Virus record (IMG/VR): IMGVR_UViG_3300046752_000076
Location: 1 to 54,973 of that record
Source of the DNA: a virus
Length of the DNA: 54,973 bases
Direction: 5' to 3' (one strand)
The notes beneath the pieces were generated by a model, which did no database searches, had not been told where the DNA came from, and worked only from the letters and a program-made list of their open reading frames with translations. The position numbers and the translations under genes are program-made. Of this stretch, positions 15,942 to 40,358 are shown in pieces. How positions within the stretch are numbered: the first letter of the stretch is position 1; each line of letters starts with the position of its first letter.

Positions 15942-16577
15942 TCAAAACATGCAGTCGTCAAAAACAGCATTGCAGCTAAGAATTATTCTATCTTCATCTG
16001 CCATGTGTGGATTGGTGAAATGTGCCATATGCGCTGGAAAAACAACTAACATGCCCTTCTTAGGGTTAAGGGTGTACTTATCATTCCATAATGCAAAGCC
16101 ATTTCCATAAATCATATTGTAAGAAGATGCCGCTGGATTGCGAAAAACAATCTCACCAGTACCCTCTGAGGTTGCTCCATAAAACACACAAGCTAAATGA
16201 GCAAAGCCGTGAATATGCTCTGGTGCAAAATGACCATGACCATAAATCGAAACCCAAGAATTTGTAAGGTGAAACTTCGGGTCTGTATTTAAAGCGTTTG
16301 TGTACTTTTGACACTGCCTAACGATAGCGTGATGTATTGGATCAAAGCGTTTATCTTCGTCCAGTTTAAATCTACCATGACTTGTGTAACCATGTTTTTT
16401 GTAATCTTCGGGTGACTTCGCTCGTTCAAAGTTATGCCAAGCATGACTTATAAGCTTTCCGTTAGGGTCTTGGTCACGCAAATCATAAGCGTACTCGCAC
16501 AGATCGTCAGCTAATTTTTCCCCATCGTCTATGATTTCATGTAAGATAGGAAAGCTAAAAGGGTTCTCAAACCCCAT
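15942..16577 (-). CDS. 2OG-Fe(II) oxygenase family protein
   Basis: A 211-aa protein of the double-stranded beta-helix dioxygenase type. SWVSIYGHGHFAPEHIHG supplies the first iron His (EHIH), ACVFYGATSEGTGEIVFRNP is the following sheet, and GMLVVFPAHMAHFTNP gives the distal His with DRIILSCN supplying the Arg that binds 2-oxoglutarate. This order matches PF13759/TIGR02466-type enzymes found in many marine phages. The substrate is unknown; hydroxylation of a protein or DNA base are possibilities. It overlaps the 73-aa gene upstream by 11 bases and sits between fibre genes and the small basic proteins. Confidence 0.8.
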   Translation of the reverse strand: MGFENPFSFPILHEIIDDGEKLADDLCEYAYDLRDQDPNGKLISHAWHNFERAKSPEDYKKHGYTSHGRFKLDEDKRFDPIHHAIVRQCQKYTNALNTDPKFHLTNSWVSIYGHGHFAPEHIHGFAHLACVFYGATSEGTGEIVFRNPAASSYNMIYGNGFALWNDKYTLNPKKGMLVVFPAHMAHFTNPHMADEDRIILSCNAVFDDCMF

Positions 16578-16796: not shown

Positions 16797-17087
16797 TTAG
16801 TCTCCGTCTGGAAGATTGTTTACCTCTACTGCTTCAGCAGCAGTCTCAGTTGGTGATAACGGCATAGCTGGAACGTTACTGTAATCGTCTTCTATGTCGT
16901 CTGGAAAACTGGCTGGGTGATCGCGTAACGCTGTACGATACGCAACCCAATCAGTCTTTGCTGTATTGTATGCAGAGTAGCTTGTTGAGTTTTCCAAGAG
17001 CTTGATTATTTCTATGTCACTCTTTGCTAACTTATCATCTCTAGCCGCCCTCATGTTTTTCATAAGAAGTTCTTTATCAACAGCCAT
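16797..17087 (-). CDS. Tail-fibre assembly chaperone-like protein (96 aa)
   Basis: The middle of this 96-aa protein reads MRAARDDKLAKSD ... KTDWVAYRTALRDHPASFPDD. The R..RD..L..SD...W..YR.ALRD.P pattern is that of phage tail (fibre) assembly chaperone families such as PF16778. An acidic C-terminus follows. The ATG at 17087 overlaps the stop of the large glycine-rich fibre gene, and such chaperones usually lie right after their fibre. It likely helps fold or attach that fibre. Confidence 0.7.
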   Translation of the reverse strand: MAVDKELLMKNMRAARDDKLAKSDIEIIKLLENSTSYSAYNTAKTDWVAYRTALRDHPASFPDDIEDDYSNVPAMPLSPTETAAEAVEVNNLPDGD

Positions 17088-28055: not shown

Positions 28056-28793
28056 ATGTCTAACATTAAATCACGAAAAATCAGCATCAAAGCATCCGAA
28101 GCAATCGCAAAAACATTTGTGGAAAGCGGAGAGCTAGGGGAAAAAAATAATGCGCTCGATGCAGCGAGAGACACAACGCAAAGTGCCTTGCAAGAGTGCA
28201 TCAACCAGTTTGCCTTAGCGTCGGAAGCGCGTAAGCATTTCGATAGCTTAGACCCTACGGTTCAATTCGGTTTGCAACCTAGGTACATAGACACGGATTG
28301 CAGTTTCCGAGTGAGTGTAGATACACCTGAGTTGACGTACAACTGTAGTGAAAGCTACGAAACAGGCGTGTCCGAATGGGATTGGCGGCGTGAAGCAGAC
28401 CCACGTACACATACGCCAAATGCTTGGTGGTGGTTCGATAGTCGCGCATTGGAAGTCATACTGGCTACACAGGGAGCAGAGATTGCCAATAAGCTAGACC
28501 TACGCAAAGAGCTTGAGGCAAAAATGTTTAGCCACCCTCTTCTCATAGCGTCAGTCAACGCATCTAGGGCTTACAATGATTGGCGAGATAATATGTATGA
28601 CCTAAAAAGACGTATCGAGAACGACATACAAGGTCGCTCAGTATCGCAAGTCTTAAACGCATGGCCTGAACTTGTGGACGCCATCAACAAATACTATGAC
28701 GTGCCAGTAGTTGTGCAACAGCCTTTAAAGCAGCCACTTTCTGCCGTGATCGCAGAGGTAACAACACCCCTAATTACACAGGCTGCCGAATGA
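28056..28793 (+). CDS. Early protein, unknown (245 aa)
   Basis: Start at the ATG at 28056 (MSNIKSRKISIKASEAIAKT), with AAAGGAG eight bases before; the frame could open at 27984 without a ribosome site. A soluble mixed protein with helical ends and a central region rich in aromatic residues (EWDWRREADPRTHTPNAWWW). No catalytic motif recognised. Its stop overlaps the methyltransferase-like start (ATGA). It may work with that enzyme, but only adjacency suggests this. Confidence 0.6.
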   Translation: MSNIKSRKISIKASEAIAKTFVESGELGEKNNALDAARDTTQSALQECINQFALASEARKHFDSLDPTVQFGLQPRYIDTDCSFRVSVDTPELTYNCSESYETGVSEWDWRREADPRTHTPNAWWWFDSRALEVILATQGAEIANKLDLRKELEAKMFSHPLLIASVNASRAYNDWRDNMYDLKRRIENDIQGRSVSQVLNAWPELVDAINKYYDVPVVVQQPLKQPLSAVIAEVTTPLITQAAE

Positions 28794-29458
28794 TACACTC
28801 TCGCTTTACGAAGGTGTTGATTGGTTGCGAGACGTCAGGCATCGTACGCGATGCCTTTCTCTCTCGTGGCTATGACGCATGGAGTTGCGATGTCCTGCCT
28901 GCCGACACGAAAACTAATCGTCACATACAGGATGATATAAGGAACGTGTTAGCGCTCGATGAGTGGCACCTAGTATTCGTAGCTCATCCACCCTGTACAC
29001 GATTGTGTAACAGTGGTGTTCGGTGGCTATCAAAACCACCACCCAACAAAACGAAAGCCCAGATGTGGGATGAACTAGACGAGGGCGCTGAGTTGTTCAG
29101 TGCCCTTTGGAACGCGGATGTGCCCTGCTTGGCTGTCGAAAACCCAGTCATGCACAAGTACGCAAAGGAACGCATCCGTAACTACGAACCATTTGCGCAG
29201 TCGATACAGCCTTGGGAGTTTGCAACCCACGAGGATAGTCCCGACAACGTGAAGAAGCGTACGTGTTTTTGGCTACGTAACCTACCACCACTAGCCAAGA
29301 CAGGTACGTTGGATGGCTCGACGGCAAGAGCCGAGGTGCATAACGCACCACCCAGCAAGGATCGCTGGAAGTTACGATCCAAGTTTTACCCAGGCGTTGC
29401 CGACGCAATGGCTACGCAATGGGGTAAGGCTGCATTGAAATCTTTAATAGGAGTATGA
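28790..29458 (+). CDS. DNA cytosine methyltransferase-like protein (222 aa)
   Basis: The order of motifs is that of C5-methyltransferases: VLIGCETSGIVRDAF (residues 9-23, AdoMet-binding motif I), SCDVLPAD (motif II), FVAHPPCTRLC with the catalytic Cys in HPPC (66-69), and AVENPVMHKY (ENP, 117-119, in place of the usual ENV). It ends with a short C-terminal domain and has no obvious target-recognition domain, being half the length of restriction-type enzymes. The family transfers methyl from AdoMet to cytosine C5; this short ENP version may act differently. It is coupled to its neighbours by ATGA overlaps. Could protect phage DNA from host restriction. Confidence 0.7.
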   Translation: MIHSRFTKVLIGCETSGIVRDAFLSRGYDAWSCDVLPADTKTNRHIQDDIRNVLALDEWHLVFVAHPPCTRLCNSGVRWLSKPPPNKTKAQMWDELDEGAELFSALWNADVPCLAVENPVMHKYAKERIRNYEPFAQSIQPWEFATHEDSPDNVKKRTCFWLRNLPPLAKTGTLDGSTARAEVHNAPPSKDRWKLRSKFYPGVADAMATQWGKAALKSLIGV

Positions 29459-29937
29459 TTATGAAACATACATATGGGGTCGGTATGGAACATCGAAAAA
29501 CTTTATACTTAATACGTGGGCTTACTGGCAGTGGTAAGACTTCGTTAGCAGCGCTTATTGACGACGGGCTGTGGTGCGAACACCAAATGCAAGCGTGGTC
29601 ATATAGTACCGATGACTACTTTACTAAACCAAATGGTGAGTATCACTTCGATGCTTCGCAACTTAAAAAAGCACACGCTTTCACTCAAGCAGAAGTTCGG
29701 GCGCATATGAAGGGGCTGCATGAACACGCAGATGCACTGATTGTTCACAACACCTTCTCATGTAACTGGGAGATGAAACCCTACAAGGACATGGCGAAGG
29801 AGTATGGTTGGTCAGTGTTCGTGATCGAGTGCCAGAATGATTTTGGTACGACGCACGATGTACCCGATGAGGTACGTGACCGTATGTCAGAGCGGTGGGA
29901 AAGAAACAAGGACGATCAACCCACAGGTAACGGGTAG
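29455..29937 (+). CDS. P-loop kinase (polynucleotide kinase/N4BP2-like)
   Basis: A 160-aa P-loop protein: LYLIRGLTGSGKTSLAALID holds Walker A GLTGSGKT (residues 22-29). WSYSTDDYFTKPNGEYHFD with the DD and the following basic KKAHAFTQAEVRAHM matches AAA_33-type kinases related to polynucleotide kinase and N4BP2, and ADALIVHNTFSCNWEM is the Walker B-like strand. The start overlaps the preceding stop (ATGA); an ATG at 29485 is an alternative. Possible roles are 5'-phosphorylation of nucleic acid or kinase of a modified base or small molecule. Confidence 0.75.
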   Translation: MIMKHTYGVGMEHRKTLYLIRGLTGSGKTSLAALIDDGLWCEHQMQAWSYSTDDYFTKPNGEYHFDASQLKKAHAFTQAEVRAHMKGLHEHADALIVHNTFSCNWEMKPYKDMAKEYGWSVFVIECQNDFGTTHDVPDEVRDRMSERWERNKDDQPTGNG

Positions 29938-30434: not shown

Positions 30435-30463
30435 TTGACACATCGTACGTTGTGTTATATACG
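30435..30463 (+). promoter_or_regulatory. Sigma70-type promoter with embedded operator
   Basis: TTGACA at 30435-30440 and TATACG at 30458-30463 are separated by 17 bases. Within this, ACACA-T-CGTACG-T-TGTGT (30438-30455) is an 18-base palindrome with only one unpaired position per side, overlapping the -35 end. This drives the AAA+/VWA gene pair starting 25 bases later and looks repressor-controlled. Confidence 0.75.
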
Positions 30464-30487
30464 CTACATATTCAACAAGGAAATCAA

Positions 30488-32101
30488 ATGTCAAACTTAA
30501 CTATCAAACGAATTGCTGAGACACATAACGCTCGTGAAGCACAGAAAGTTCTTCGCGGTGTTATCCAACACAAGCTTCCGTACGATCACGACTGGTGGCA
30601 ACCAGTTGTCAACGCAGCTTGTGCGTCCCCAGCGATCAACAATACTCACCCAAAGTCACGTTCGATGAAGAGTGTCAGCGTCTCGCAGATACTTGATCGT
30701 ATGAACGTGGATGGCCTTACGTTTCTCATCAACTACTTCAATACGGTAGGCACGGAAGAGGCTGCGTTGCTTCTTGCAAATGACTTCGTGCATCTCGATA
30801 GCCACGCGAAGCTCGATGAGATTACGAGTTGGCCTTTCACGCAAGACCTCGCAACCCTCGATGAACTGTACGAGACTGATCTCGAAAACGATCTCATGGA
30901 AATCGGTGGCTGCGCTGTCGAGGCCGAGCCAGAAGCTGAGGCCGAGGCCGAGGTCGAGCCAGAGGTTGAAGCAGATACATCCGATACGTACTCCGTACCT
31001 GATGCCATTGCTTCGGCTGCCAACGTACTGCTTGAGGCTGCCACTGGCGGTGACGAGAAAGACTTGCAAGCACTGCTTGACGAGGTGGTTACGCTTCGCA
31101 AGAAGCCTGACTACGCTGCCGTGCCAGAGGTTGATGCTACAGGCGACATACCGTTCGGCGCACCCATACGAAAGAACGTACAGGATGTGTTCGGTATCAA
31201 GCACAAGATGCTAGACTTCGAGATCAATGCGTACGAGTGGGCTGGCACCAACCCTTTGGTGCCTGTTGTTGATGAGAACTATATCTTCAACGTCGATGCT
31301 CTGCATGACTGCTTGTGGGCGCGTAATAATAAAGAGAACGCGTGGCTATCGGGTCATACTGGTACTGGCAAGTCTACCTTTGTCGAGCAAGTATGTGCCC
31401 GTACTGGCTACATGTTGGTTCGTGTCAACATGGACAGCGGTATCGAGCGTGACACGTTCGTCGGTATCATGGGTCTTGAGGCTGATGAGAACGGCAACAA
31501 CATCAGCAAGTTCGTGGACGGTATACTGCCGAAAGCAATGCAGATGCCGTGTATTCTCCTGCTCGATGAGCTTGATGCTGTACGTCCAGATATTGCGTAC
31601 GTATTGCAGCCTGTCCTTGAGGGCAAGTCGTTACGATTGCTTGAGGATGGTGGCCGTATGGTTCACCCACATATGGACTTCCATATCTGTGCGACTGGTA
31701 ACTCTACTGGTCAAGGCGATAGCTCTGGTATGTACGCGGCTGCTGTCAAAATTCAGTCTCGTGCTCTGGTCAATCGGTTCGCTACTCACATTCGTATCGA
31801 TTACCTATCTCTTGCTGACGAGATGGCGCTGGTTCGCAACGCTGCTCCAACGCTGAGTGCCAAGTCGGAAGAGTACATCCAAGACTTCGTGATGAACTAC
31901 CGACAAGGCTTCCTAGATGGGACGATTGTAACACCCATATCACCTCGTAACACCGCTACGATTGGCAAGTACGTAGCCAGTCTTGAGGATCGCATTGGTT
32001 GCTTGGCTTCTGTCAAGAAAGCACTGCACATGAACGTGATGCTGACCATCGATGAGGCTGATGCCATTGCGGTAACTGGCATCATGGATCGCATATCATA
32101 A
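30488..32101 (+). CDS. MoxR/CobS-like AAA+ ATPase
   Basis: Start at the ATG at 30488 (MSNLTIKRIAETHNAREAQK), with AAGGA eight bases upstream. Residues 1-135 are a helical N-domain, 140-165 a Glu/Ala-rich linker, and 230-520 an AAA+ domain: Walker A GHTGTGKST (289-297), Walker B ILLLDELD (356-363), sensor ATGNSTGQGDSSGMY, then NRF and arginine-rich helices. The ATGN..GxGD..GxY pattern is typical of CobS, the cobalt-chelatase ATPase, and of MoxR ATPases. It sits directly before a VWA gene, the standard MoxR-VWA pairing. No other cobalamin gene is present, so a chaperone/remodelling role is as likely as chelation. Confidence 0.85.
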   Translation: MSNLTIKRIAETHNAREAQKVLRGVIQHKLPYDHDWWQPVVNAACASPAINNTHPKSRSMKSVSVSQILDRMNVDGLTFLINYFNTVGTEEAALLLANDFVHLDSHAKLDEITSWPFTQDLATLDELYETDLENDLMEIGGCAVEAEPEAEAEAEVEPEVEADTSDTYSVPDAIASAANVLLEAATGGDEKDLQALLDEVVTLRKKPDYAAVPEVDATGDIPFGAPIRKNVQDVFGIKHKMLDFEINAYEWAGTNPLVPVVDENYIFNVDALHDCLWARNNKENAWLSGHTGTGKSTFVEQVCARTGYMLVRVNMDSGIERDTFVGIMGLEADENGNNISKFVDGILPKAMQMPCILLLDELDAVRPDIAYVLQPVLEGKSLRLLEDGGRMVHPHMDFHICATGNSTGQGDSSGMYAAAVKIQSRALVNRFATHIRIDYLSLADEMALVRNAAPTLSAKSEEYIQDFVMNYRQGFLDGTIVTPISPRNTATIGKYVASLEDRIGCLASVKKALHMNVMLTIDEADAIAVTGIMDRIS

Positions 32102-32125
32102 TCAAATTTCAACAAGGAGTAACAA

Positions 32126-34105
32126 ATGTTTTCGCAAAATTCTGTATCTGCCCTAGCGACTGAGCTAGACAAGCTGTCTCGCATCATGGGTAACAAGAAC
32201 GTACGTACCACTTTCAACGGGAGTGGTGCTTACACCGATGGTCATACTGTCAACGTGCCAGCAATGGACATGGACGCGCAGCTTGACCCAACCCACCAAG
32301 CGATCATGCGTGGCTATCATATACACGAGGTCAGCCACGTTACTGACACTGACTTCAGCGTGTTCAACAAACGTGGCGTCAAGAAGATCAAGGACACATG
32401 GAACTGCTGTGAGGATGTGTTCGTAGAGCGCAAGGCTATGGAGAAATTTCCAGGAGCAAGGCGTTCTCTCCAACAGACAATCAATCACGTACTTGAGAAA
32501 GAGAACGAGCACTGGGCTGACAACCCAGAGAAGGATGAGAAGCGTCGAGAGAAGTGGTGGACAGAGATACCATACGCTGCTCTGCAAGTGGCTCGTAGGA
32601 AGATGGGGTACGACAGCGAGGCACTGGATCAGTACATTGATGACATGCCAAAGGAACTAATGAGAGAAGCGCGGAAGTTCTCCACGAAGATGATCGACGC
32701 TGACAATTCACATGATGCTCTGGCGGTTGCTCGTGCAATCGAGCGCCGCATGAAGAAGCTTGGTGAGGAGTACGTCGAAGAGGAACAGGAGAAGCAACAG
32801 CAAGGGATCGGTCAGCCCAACCCAGAAGGTGACGAGCAAGGGCGTATTGAGAACGGTAGCGATCAAAACTCTGACGACGGCGACAGTGATGGCGACGGAG
32901 ACGACAACGGTGATGGCGATGGCGACGGAACGAACGGTGGCGGCGACGGCGAAGACGGCGACGGCGGTGCTGGCGGTAGCGGCGGTGACGATGAAGACGG
33001 CGACGCTGACACTGGTACGAACGCTCAACCCATTACCATCGATCCCAACGAGGGTGGCTTCAGTACTGCTGATGCTGAAGAGCGTGCAAAGGGTGCGATG
33101 AACGCTGTCTTTGGCAAGTACTCAAGCAAGGATGCCAAACACGTTTGCACTGACAAAGCGGAAGTGTTCGACGATCACAAGCAAGTTTGGTCGTGGCTGT
33201 ATGATGTTGCCAATAGAACGGACAACGGTAAACGCGTCCACGCGCACATCAAAAACAACATTCAGGGACATAGGACTACGCCCCATGGGAGTACGCATCT
33301 TACCACCAGAAACAACACGAAGATTATGAATGAGCGTATGCCTGATGATGTTCGTTTGTATAGCGCTAGACTTGCACGTCTACTGTTGTCGCAAGAGGAC
33401 AGACGTAAAGAAGGTGGTCATCGTTCTGGCAAGATCGATGCGCGTAGGCTTTCACAAATCAAAGCAGGCAACACCAATGTCTTTGCACGTAACAGTGTAA
33501 CCAAGACTGCTGAGACGCGCATCATGGTTGCGGTTGATGGTTCGTCCAGTATGCAATGGGAGCCTACCGTTTCTGCAATACTGGCTCTCAACCAGTGCCT
33601 TGGTCGTGCCAATGTCAAGTTTGATATTGTCGAATGGGGTGGCGTATCATGGGGGCATCAAGACAAAGTGTTTGGAGACAGACCTTGGCTTGTCTATCAC
33701 AAGAAATCTTCCGACAACTGGCGAAAGATCAACACTGGCTTTGAGTTCCAGCCAGTCGGCGGCGACACACCCACGTACTCTAGCATGGTTGGTACTGCTC
33801 GTATTATGAGCGAGTGGCAAGAGCCTCGACGCGTGCTCCTGTTCCTTACTGATGGCAAACCCAATGGTAGGGAACATGAGAGCAAGGTGGTTGGTGATCT
33901 TGTCAAGGATATGTTCGCTGGCGGTATCGAAAGCTACGCCGTTTATATTGGACGGCAGCTCAAAGAAAATTCTGTTACGAGACAATTGTTGGACATGATG
34001 TTCGATGACAAATGGACAGAGTGTACGTTCGAGAAGCTTGGCGAGACATTGCTCGGCGGTATCGAGAGGCTGCTCATCAAAGGGGGTCACGCCCATGCCG
34101 CGTGA
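32126..34105 (+). CDS. CobT-like VWA protein with metallopeptidase motif
   Basis: A 659-aa protein in three parts. Residues 1-200 hold YHIHEVSHVTD (HExxH at 67-71) with NCCEDVFVERK about 25 residues later offering the third zinc ligand, a gluzincin-like pattern. Residues about 215-310 are a very acidic Asp/Gly linker (DSDGDGDDNGDGDGDG), as in CobT. Residues about 460-650 are a VWA domain: IMVAVDGSSSMQW (MIDAS DxSxS) and LFLTDGKPNG. It follows its AAA+ partner by 24 bases with AAGGAG before the ATG. CobT proper is a chelatase subunit; phage relatives with HExxH may instead be ATPase-driven proteases. Family firm, activity open. Confidence 0.85.
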   Translation: MFSQNSVSALATELDKLSRIMGNKNVRTTFNGSGAYTDGHTVNVPAMDMDAQLDPTHQAIMRGYHIHEVSHVTDTDFSVFNKRGVKKIKDTWNCCEDVFVERKAMEKFPGARRSLQQTINHVLEKENEHWADNPEKDEKRREKWWTEIPYAALQVARRKMGYDSEALDQYIDDMPKELMREARKFSTKMIDADNSHDALAVARAIERRMKKLGEEYVEEEQEKQQQGIGQPNPEGDEQGRIENGSDQNSDDGDSDGDGDDNGDGDGDGTNGGGDGEDGDGGAGGSGGDDEDGDADTGTNAQPITIDPNEGGFSTADAEERAKGAMNAVFGKYSSKDAKHVCTDKAEVFDDHKQVWSWLYDVANRTDNGKRVHAHIKNNIQGHRTTPHGSTHLTTRNNTKIMNERMPDDVRLYSARLARLLLSQEDRRKEGGHRSGKIDARRLSQIKAGNTNVFARNSVTKTAETRIMVAVDGSSSMQWEPTVSAILALNQCLGRANVKFDIVEWGGVSWGHQDKVFGDRPWLVYHKKSSDNWRKINTGFEFQPVGGDTPTYSSMVGTARIMSEWQEPRRVLLFLTDGKPNGREHESKVVGDLVKDMFAGGIESYAVYIGRQLKENSVTRQLLDMMFDDKWTECTFEKLGETLLGGIERLLIKGGHAHAA

Positions 34106-34415
34106 TCTCAAACTACCCAGAAGTTTTGACCCGAAGGTCAATCCCACCATGAAACGAGACTGGTTCAAGCTGGCTGATGGCTGGCGACCACACTCATGGT
34201 GGTGGCATGTGGCGTACGTCATCCGATCAAAGCGCGTACGCCACGCCGATGAAGAAAAGATTAAGCGCGTGATGCGCTTGATCGATAACAAACTTCCCCA
34301 TCTACAGGAGGATTACACCCGTGGAAGTACTAACACAAGCAGTACTCTGCCTAGCATTGAACGTATACTTCGAGGCGAGGTCAGAGGATACGAGGGGACA
34401 ACTCGCCGTGGCTGA
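34095..34415 (+). CDS. Small basic protein, unknown (106 aa)
   Basis: Start at the ATG at 34095 (MPRDLKLPRSFDPKVNPTMK), overlapping the VWA gene end by 11 bases. Trp/His-rich in the middle (WRPHSWWWHVAYVIRSKRV) and basic. It overlaps the cell-wall hydrolase gene by 95 bases in another frame, so the last 30 residues may be incidental. A perfect ten-base inverted repeat (GTGGCGTACG at 34209, CGTACGCCAC at 34235) lies inside. Not recognised; it may belong to the VWA/ATPase set. Confidence 0.6.
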   Translation: MPRDLKLPRSFDPKVNPTMKRDWFKLADGWRPHSWWWHVAYVIRSKRVRHADEEKIKRVMRLIDNKLPHLQEDYTRGSTNTSSTLPSIERILRGEVRGYEGTTRRG

Positions 34416-34707
34416 AGTCACACTCAATCGAGTGAAGAGCGAGAAATATCCCGACAATATTTGTGATGTTGTGTGGCAACGAAAGCAGTTTAGTTGGACG
34501 CACGATGGCAAGAGCGACAACCCAAAGCACGCAAAGGCTTGGGAGAAAGCGCAACGAATAGCGCTGTTCGCAATCACGACAGGCAACAAGATAGTGGGAG
34601 ATGACGTCACCCACTATCACGCAAGTTATACGCAACCGTACTGGACAAACTCTTATGAACGCGTTGCGCAAGTTGGAACACATATTTTCTACAAGAGAAA
34701 GGGTTAG
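34321..34707 (+). CDS. SleB-type cell wall hydrolase (128 aa)
   Basis: GTG start at 34321 with a strong AGGAGG twelve bases upstream. ALNVYFEARSED (catalytic Glu about residue 18), LAVAEVTLNRVKSEKYPDNICDVVWQ, QFSWTHDGK and DVTHYHA match the Hydrolase_2/SleB family of lytic enzymes in order and spacing. These cleave the peptidoglycan sugar backbone. There is no signal peptide, so export would need a holin or another route. It lies in the early plus-strand operon, separate from the amidase of the lysis cassette. It could be an endolysin or help during infection. Confidence 0.85.
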   Translation: MEVLTQAVLCLALNVYFEARSEDTRGQLAVAEVTLNRVKSEKYPDNICDVVWQRKQFSWTHDGKSDNPKHAKAWEKAQRIALFAITTGNKIVGDDVTHYHASYTQPYWTNSYERVAQVGTHIFYKRKG

Positions 34708-39686: not shown

Positions 39687-40358
39687 TTACTTCCAGCCTT
39701 CTGCCCAAGCCTTAATTCTTTCTCTCATTATATAAACGCCGAAAAGAATAGTGAGGCCAGCAAAACCCAGAATGATATACTGACTTGTTTCGTTCATGCC
39801 TGAGAGTGAAGTGACGGCAGTACCAGCACTGGCTGCAACTGTAGCTGCTGATGCCTTAACTGTTTTACTTTGGGTTGGTTTCGTACGCTCGGGCTTCTTA
39901 GCCGTTGCTTCGGAGAGCGACATGCCAGCCAACCATTTCTGTACGCGAAAGCCAGGACATGCTTTGGACGAGATGCGATTGTGTCCAATCACTCGCTCGC
40001 TCTTTATGTTGTACTGACCCTGTAGCTTTCGTATCAGTTCGTATGCTGCTGCTAGTTGTAGCGGTGTGAAGTGATCGGTTGCTAGGTCGTCTGCATCTGA
40101 ACCGAAGCCACCAAAAAGTGCGATGCCAATACTATCTTTATTATGACCACGCGCATGACTACCGATCATCTCGATAGGTCTGCCCTGTACGACTTCTCCG
40201 TTGCGACCTATGAGGTAATGATATCCAATCGCCTTCCATCCCCGATCTACGACGTGCCACTTTTCCACTTCTTTGACTTGTTCGTTAATTGTTTTCTTAT
40301 CCCACCAATCGGGACGGGTCGCGGTACAGTGGACAATGATCTGTCTAATCTGTCTCAT
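39687..40358 (-). CDS. N-acetylmuramoyl-L-alanine amidase with C-terminal membrane span
   Basis: A T7-lysozyme-like Amidase_2 enzyme of 223 aa. Zinc ligands H10 (IIVHCTAT), H126 (VIGHNRIS) and C134 (SKACPGF) are present, as are the catalytic Tyr in GYHYL and K132; the spacing H-x5-K-x-C equals that of T7 lysozyme. After an Ala/Thr/Lys linker (residues about 150-185) comes a membrane helix (YIILGFAGLTILFGVYIM) and basic end. It cuts the amide bond between MurNAc and L-alanine. The membrane segment is unusual for T7-type lysozymes and may anchor or self-export it. GGGAG precedes the start. Confidence 0.9.
   Translation of the reverse strand: MRQIRQIIVHCTATRPDWWDKKTINEQVKEVEKWHVVDRGWKAIGYHYLIGRNGEVVQGRPIEMIGSHARGHNKDSIGIALFGGFGSDADDLATDHFTPLQLAAAYELIRKLQGQYNIKSERVIGHNRISSKACPGFRVQKWLAGMSLSEATAKKPERTKPTQSKTVKASAATVAASAGTAVTSLSGMNETSQYIILGFAGLTILFGVYIMRERIKAWAEGWK

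Follow-up and report, generated by a model that had tools for sequence, protein, structure and literature searches.

A C5-cytosine methyltransferase-like phage protein of PHROG 757 without a target-recognition domain, and its kinase-like neighbour

A short methyltransferase-like gene that is directly followed by a P-loop kinase-like gene raises the question of whether the two products modify DNA bases together. The stretch analysed here, below called the window, is a virus record 54,973 bases long. Its genes include terminase, portal-like, major head, integrase, primase, Sak4-like, SSB and Cas4-type exonuclease genes. A rightward run in it encodes a 244-aa protein, the methyltransferase-like protein (MT), the kinase-like protein, a 119-aa protein, a CobS-like AAA+ ATPase and a CobT-like protein. 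We suggest, with a probability of roughly 0.6, that MT is a stand-alone C5-cytosine DNA methyltransferase of PHROG 757 that lacks a target-recognition domain (TRD) and probably serves restriction avoidance, and that the kinase is independent of it. The features discussed are:

28059..28793, plus strand: uncharacterised 244-aa protein whose reading frame runs into the start of MT
28790..29458, plus strand: TRD-less C5-cytosine methyltransferase-like protein (MT), PHROG 757, 222 aa, ATG start
28823..28840, plus strand: motif-I-like AdoMet loop GCETSG, residues 12-17, with Glu14 and Ser16 invariant in an alignment of 101 relatives; putative role taken from the fold
28985..28999, plus strand: motif IV HPPCT, residues 66-70 (HPPC, 66-69), with Cys69 the predicted catalytic nucleophile
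29138..29146, plus strand: motif VI ENP, residues 117-119, instead of ENV, conserved in the 101 relatives
29255..29272, plus strand: K156-x-T158-x-x-W161 at the position of motif VIII, instead of QxRxR; putative equivalent
29363..29422, plus strand: RWKxRSxxxxGxAxAMAxQW, residues 192-211, at the position of motif X, instead of QxGN; putative equivalent
29455..29937 (start may be 29461), plus strand: P-loop kinase-like protein, AAA_33, PHROG 2071; not judged part of the MT system
30452..32101, plus strand: CobS-like AAA+ ATPase, which lies 3' of MT in the window and also in loci L055, L077 and L020
32126..34105, plus strand: CobT-like protein with a possible VWA-type C-terminus (VWA profile matches below Pfam cut-offs)
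15942-16577, minus strand: 2OG-Fe(II) oxygenase, PF13759, PHROG 81

The original prediction placed GCETSG, HPPC and ENP within 222 residues at 28790-29458, with no visible TRD, and all of this was confirmed on the plus strand. The three motifs and the lack of room for a TRD are hallmarks of the family and not oddities. The MT start overlaps the end of the upstream open reading frame by ATGA (28790-28793), and its stop (29456-29458) overlaps a possible ATG, at 29455, of the kinase-like reading frame. A second kinase ATG lies at 29461, 7 bases 3' of an AGGAG, and we consider it the likelier start.

MT matches PHROG 757, annotated as 'DNA methyltransferase', with an E value of 1.9e-53 (residues 7-217 on profile positions 15-224 of 247), and by this match it is a further member of a known, large phage methyltransferase family. 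A Pfam and NCBIfam scan of the window MT gave no match, PF00145 not reaching its cut-off. At E <= 0.1, PF00145 was found in only 3 of 101 relatives (best 0.004). The same model reached E 0.19 in one of six further members, at 11.5 bits against a cut-off of 22, and two Vequintavirinae members with a near-canonical motif I also fell below the Pfam cut-off. A PDB sequence search with the branch to which the window belongs gave no true relative.

By tblastn with the window MT, a relative was detected in 154 of the 50,697 phage records searched, and in 22 of the 72,556 plasmid records. With a divergent member from Escherichia phage FFH2 as query, 1,544 phage records were matched, including phages that annotate the gene as 'Dcm-like C5 cytosine methyltransferase'. 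A relative is encoded in 295 of 298 IMG/VR stretches matched by pattern. The PHROG 757 match, the 154 phage records and these IMG/VR stretches together show that the motif set is not due to chance. Among stretches from bacterial and archaeal genome contigs, at least 529 of 595 encode relatives, and the 80 kept among the matches listed are mostly alphaproteobacterial. The family occurs in Caudoviricetes, Pf and other inoviruses, Microviridae and a Methanosarcina virus. Carriers include Flavobacterium and Vibrio phages, P-SSP7 (gp12), Bcep1 (gp12) and an inovirus of porcine source. It should be noted that the microvirus relative comes from a 5.6-kb 'unverified' record and that its protein matches the profile over residues 1-160 only. 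A second methyltransferase gene lies nearby in five of eight fetched MT regions (Labrenzia V1, phi3LM21, Rivra, snork9-1 and Bcep1). Divergent PHROG 757 members were also seen in the Vequintavirinae PVP-SE1 (locus L467, 6013-6741) and FFH2 (L468, 5686-6450), with helicase/primase-type ATPase and DNA polymerase genes beside or near them.

Conservation was assessed in an alignment of 101 sequences, made up of 96 of 107 representatives plus the window, L078, L090, L170 and L250; the window's own locus, eight annotated-record loci, L039 and L075 were left out. Twelve of 329 MT hits had been dropped for having no stop within the locus, an internal stop or fewer than 150 aa. Glu14 and Ser16 of the GCETSG loop are invariant, as is Asp34 at the place of motif II (101/101). 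Cys69 of motif IV is present in 99 of the 101; the other two, L146 and L206, have PPY instead of PPC and may be inactive or repurposed. L206 also has EAP for ENP. Glu117 and Pro119 are found in all 101 sequences and Asn118 in 100, and thus ENP is the family's own form of motif VI. K156, T158 and W161 are each present in 100. A set of seven members that included the two distant Vequintavirinae has 18 invariant columns, among them P-C-T, E-N-P, KxT and RS; motif I of both Vequintavirinae members is a canonical-looking SLFDGSG.

The AlphaFold2 model of MT (pLDDT 94.2, pTM 0.90) has the class I AdoMet-methyltransferase fold of the C5 type. VIA-align 2 aligned nearly the whole model with DNMT3B (6kdl; Z 12.2, 192 residues, rmsd 3.7), M.HhaI (2z6u; Z 11.8, 195 residues, rmsd 3.8) and M.HaeIII (1dct; Z 11.6, 188 residues, rmsd 3.6), and the 50 entries listed are C5 DNA methyltransferases. 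This was a second look at 1,000 chains ranked by Foldseek. Foldseek itself gave nothing against the PDB at E <= 0.001; its first rows were other AdoMet enzymes and an epimerase, with M.HaeIII at rank 7. Against viral predicted structures, several annotated cytosine methyltransferases were found at E <= 0.001. For a comparison of profiles, 37 loci were scanned for canonical C5 enzymes, and 17 passed a motif and length filter. With hhalign the MT family scored 32.9 against these 17, compared with a maximum of 23.1 for 100 column shuffles and 13.3 for the reversed profile. The aligned region places PPC on PPC, but the hhalign probability is only about 25%, so the sequence evidence alone is weak. 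The catalytic Cys of motif IV and the Glu of motif VI that mark the superfamily are both present in the family. The family profile, the conserved catalytic residues and the predicted fold all bear out the description as cytosine-methyltransferase-like and without a TRD.

In C5-methyltransferases, motif VIII has the form QxRxR and motif X the form QxGN. In the MT family these and ENV are not present, and ENP, KxT(xxW) and RS...GxAxA(MAxQW) are found instead, family-wide. No TRD was found between motifs VIII and X in any of the 101 members: the gap between Leu165 and Arg192 is 23-44 residues (median 26), which leaves no TRD-sized insert. The distance from Thr158 to Gly202 in the window MT is 43 residues, against 131 from Arg158 to Gly290 in one canonical C5-methyltransferase (L411). 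The replacement of the DNA-contact motifs VIII and X counts against the reading, and DNA is thus no more than a predicted substrate.

A specificity subunit encoded by a separate gene was also considered and rejected: when neighbours within 4 kb of MT were clustered for the 107 representatives, no family occurred in more than five loci. With a looser criterion, taking flanks of up to 10 kb at the 80 closest loci, long proteins that by eye resemble primases formed a cluster present in 23, and other clusters, tail- and terminase-like by eye, in up to 22.

As for the surroundings of MT, the upstream 244-aa protein was found in no more than two of the 410 loci searched, that of the window itself and the identical contig L054. 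The CobS- and CobT-like genes (30452-34105) also follow MT in L055 and L077, with a CobS-like fragment in L020, and are better kept neighbours of MT than the kinase is. Two endolysin-like genes lie on opposite strands at 34321-34707 and 39687-40358, matching PHROG 938 ('endolysin') and PHROG 822 ('amidase'). Scanning the window with Rfam and for tRNA genes gave no hit. The oxygenase gene lies near a tail assembly chaperone gene (16797-17087), about 12 kb from MT. A TET-type oxidation step was rejected: the sole 2OG oxygenase recognised in the window matches PF13759 and no TET/JBP model.

The original prediction also described the next gene as a polynucleotide-kinase-like P-loop protein. A P-loop kinase-like protein it is, matching AAA_33 (E 6e-07, 30.3 bits, cut-off 27) and PHROG 2071 'ATPase' (1.6e-31), with a weaker match to the polynucleotide kinase family PHROG 505 (2.8e-05). 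Relatives occur in 614 phage records. Among nine kinase phages examined, an RNA ligase gene is adjacent to the kinase in five and one gene away in two; the nine were picked by hand from hit lists, not at random, and in some cases the hit list had already shown the ligase. Several also have NAD or PRPP enzymes nearby. In a listing of 60 evenly spaced kinase records, an RNA ligase is named in seven rows as one of the features that the match itself covers. The window proteins scanned, which exclude a 2138-aa open reading frame and several short ones, contained no recognisable separate RNA ligase. A scan of viral sequences with the window kinase gave one locus, and with the kinase of L330 six, L330 included. 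We read the kinase as an independent accessory gene, most likely of the polynucleotide-kinase/RNA-repair kind.

If MT and the kinase acted jointly, they would be expected to occur together elsewhere. A tblastn search at E <= 1e-3 took in 410 loci and the window as positive control, and none of the 408 other MT loci, many of which are truncated, gave a relative of the kinase. For 317 loci with an intact MT reading frame, at least 1 kb of downstream DNA was available in 290 and at least 3 kb in 232. L054 ends inside MT, and some loci represent the same phage from two collections. Further records were chosen by hand: 23 viral records from the 80 closest loci, 34 from other MT loci and 14 bacterial genomes from the 80 bacterial stretches. 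The kinase was not found in the 23 viral records (some of them fragments) or the 14 bacterial genomes; both searches ran with no positive control, and an empty answer of this kind shows nothing by itself. In the set of 34, with a positive window control, it was absent from 33; the lone exception, G142, has a relative of the kinase, split into two pieces, some 15 kb away from MT. Six records of phages of the same type, with terminases 52-58% identical to that of the window, had no kinase, and three positive controls (the window and two kinase phages) matched. These six are a subset of the 23, and all but one are shorter than 30 kb and therefore fragments. L055 and L077 likewise have no kinase between MT and the CobS-like gene downstream of it. 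The co-occurrence check thus came out negative, and the two families show no linkage in the MT loci, viral records and bacterial genomes searched.

The reciprocal search covered 14 kinase records, namely five of the six loci from the scan with the L330 kinase (L456 was left out) and the nine picked phages. Three hold a distant MT relative, all of them Vequintavirinae and with the two genes tens of kb apart. KT934943, OR449013 and OZ035771 appear in both result lists, that for the kinase and that for MT with the FFH2 query. The two families can therefore share a genome without being linked, and their adjacency in the window is an exception.

These results bear on the proposal that MT and the coupled kinase form one hypermodification pathway of methylation, oxidation, phosphorylation and substitution, in line with the possible joint base modification (methylation followed by phosphorylation-driven changes) that the original prediction had offered. 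It draws on the adjacency of the two genes, overlapping or nearly so, on the 2OG-Fe(II) oxygenase at 15942-16577 and on genomes that have both families unlinked (3/14 kinase records and 1/34 MT records). The proposal is unsupported by the co-occurrence counts (0/408 loci, 0/23 and 1/34 viral records, 0/14 bacterial genomes), and the RNA ligase near the kinase in seven of the nine picked phages also speaks against it, as does an oxygenase of the PF13759 and not the TET/JBP type, far from MT and near a tail gene. In positions 25000-59446 of M6, a phage reported to have 5-NedU, there was no convincing relative of MT or of the kinase, the best kinase tblastn match having E 0.37 over 12 residues. 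A further point against it is that both families occur in some Vequintavirinae, a subfamily reported as restriction-susceptible (PMC8594841). We regard such a pathway as very improbable; the pairing looks like a neighbour effect.

We return to the reading of MT as a stand-alone C5-cytosine DNA methyltransferase. In C5-methyltransferases the Cys and the Glu act on C6 and on N3/N4, respectively. MT is predicted to have an AdoMet-binding core and a Cys/Glu pair that would activate cytosine for C5 methylation. If MT works like its fold relatives, C6 of a flipped cytosine would be attacked by Cys69 and N3/N4 held by Glu117, and the methyl group placed on C5 would come from AdoMet bound in the GCETSG pocket. 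As there is no TRD, specificity is expected to be low or set by few contacts. MT is probably made during infection, and the phage DNA would then carry 5-methylcytosine at short or degenerate sites and thereby escape some host restriction enzymes. The computation itself shows the family, the fold, the conserved residues, the missing TRD and the lack of linkage to the kinase; DNA as substrate, 5-methylcytosine as product, low specificity and the role in restriction avoidance are what we infer.

Orphan methyltransferases whose targets are degenerate have been described as a means by which mobile elements counter restriction (PMC12707154; PMC7736820), and such modifiers may shield mobile DNA from a wide range of restriction enzymes (PMC12707154). 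The BASEL study (PMC8594841) describes Vequintavirinae as exceptionally susceptible to restriction and reports for Drexlerviridae no simple link between methyltransferase genes and resistance, which was not predicted by them. Both observations count against a strong protective effect, and the role and specificity given here for MT are therefore predictions. Three members of this subfamily, which may or may not be among the phages tested in BASEL, carry a distant MT relative.

Three other readings of MT itself were weighed. A more far-reaching version, which we hold as a tentative possibility, is that PHROG 757 is a distinct class of C5-methyltransferases that gave up target recognition. Lacking a TRD and with altered DNA-contact motifs, they would be promiscuous, perhaps with single-stranded or replicating DNA as substrate, in the way that M.EcoGIX is for adenine; the finding of the family in inoviruses, microviruses and replication modules would fit this. 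A second reading, in which MT is a DNA methyltransferase that controls phage replication, packaging or gene expression and does not serve restriction avoidance, appears unlikely. MT does lie near replication genes in phi3LM21, PVP-SE1 and FFH2, and the cluster of long, primase-like proteins recurs in 23 of the 80 closest loci, but the spread of the family is patchy and accessory. For instance, PMC7549136 gives a dcm gene after PA0718, presumably of the MT family, in 21 of 182 Pf prophages, six of the 21 being pseudogenes. Slightly less likely still is a C5-methyltransferase acting on RNA (tRNA or mRNA) or nucleotides, in which the TRD would have been lost as duplex DNA is not the substrate. 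The missing TRD and the replacement of the DNA-contact motifs VIII and X across 101 members would be explained in this way, but the 50 fold neighbours listed are DNA methyltransferases, and the two distant Vequintavirinae members lie beside or near helicase/primase and DNA polymerase genes. An RNA-modifying luxury also seems less likely in a 5.6-kb microvirus, the record being 'unverified' and its match limited as noted above.

What is notable about MT is the family-wide absence of a TRD. The family is found in well over a thousand phage records, yet the members scanned fall below the Pfam cut-off. If a C5 core without a TRD, as predicted here, is promiscuous, the family would be a small cytosine-directed equivalent of the non-specific adenine methyltransferases and a general anti-restriction device. 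No title or opening abstract describing a TRD-less C5 phage methyltransferase was found in a literature search that lay outside most subscription journals, and the same search gave no reported activity for the family and nothing for P-SSP7 gp12.

Among known proteins, P-SSP7 gp12, Bcep1 gp12 and the Pf-phage cytosine methyltransferase of PHROG 757 belong to the same family as the window MT by profile and tblastn, and so does the PHROG 757 'Dcm-like C5 cytosine methyltransferase' of the Escherichia phages MaxBurger and JeanPiccard. The seven members aligned have PPCT, ENP, KxT and RS...GxAxA in common with the window MT, the Flavobacterium member having PECT. The window's branch has GCExSG at motif I, whereas the two Vequintavirinae members have SLFDGSG, and it is 21-24% identical to these two. 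The window kinase is, like PHROG 2071 and polynucleotide kinase-like proteins, a small P-loop kinase-like protein; it differs from the PHROG 2071-type kinases of the picked phages in its setting, with no RNA ligase recognised in the window proteins scanned. With canonical C5 enzymes (PF00145, such as M.HhaI and M.HaeIII, and DNMT3A/3B) MT shares the fold, the motif order and the catalytic Cys and Glu, but it has no TRD, has ENP for ENV and KxT for QxRxR, lacks QxGN and is not detected by Pfam. In its proposed role, one orphan enzyme covering many sites, MT resembles M.EcoGII, M.EcoGIX and M.BceJIII (PMC12707154, PMC7736820); M.EcoGIX and M.BceJIII are described in PMC7736820 as promiscuous and acting on single strands. 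These enzymes modify adenine, unlike the predicted cytosine methyltransferase of the window, and are likened to it by role.
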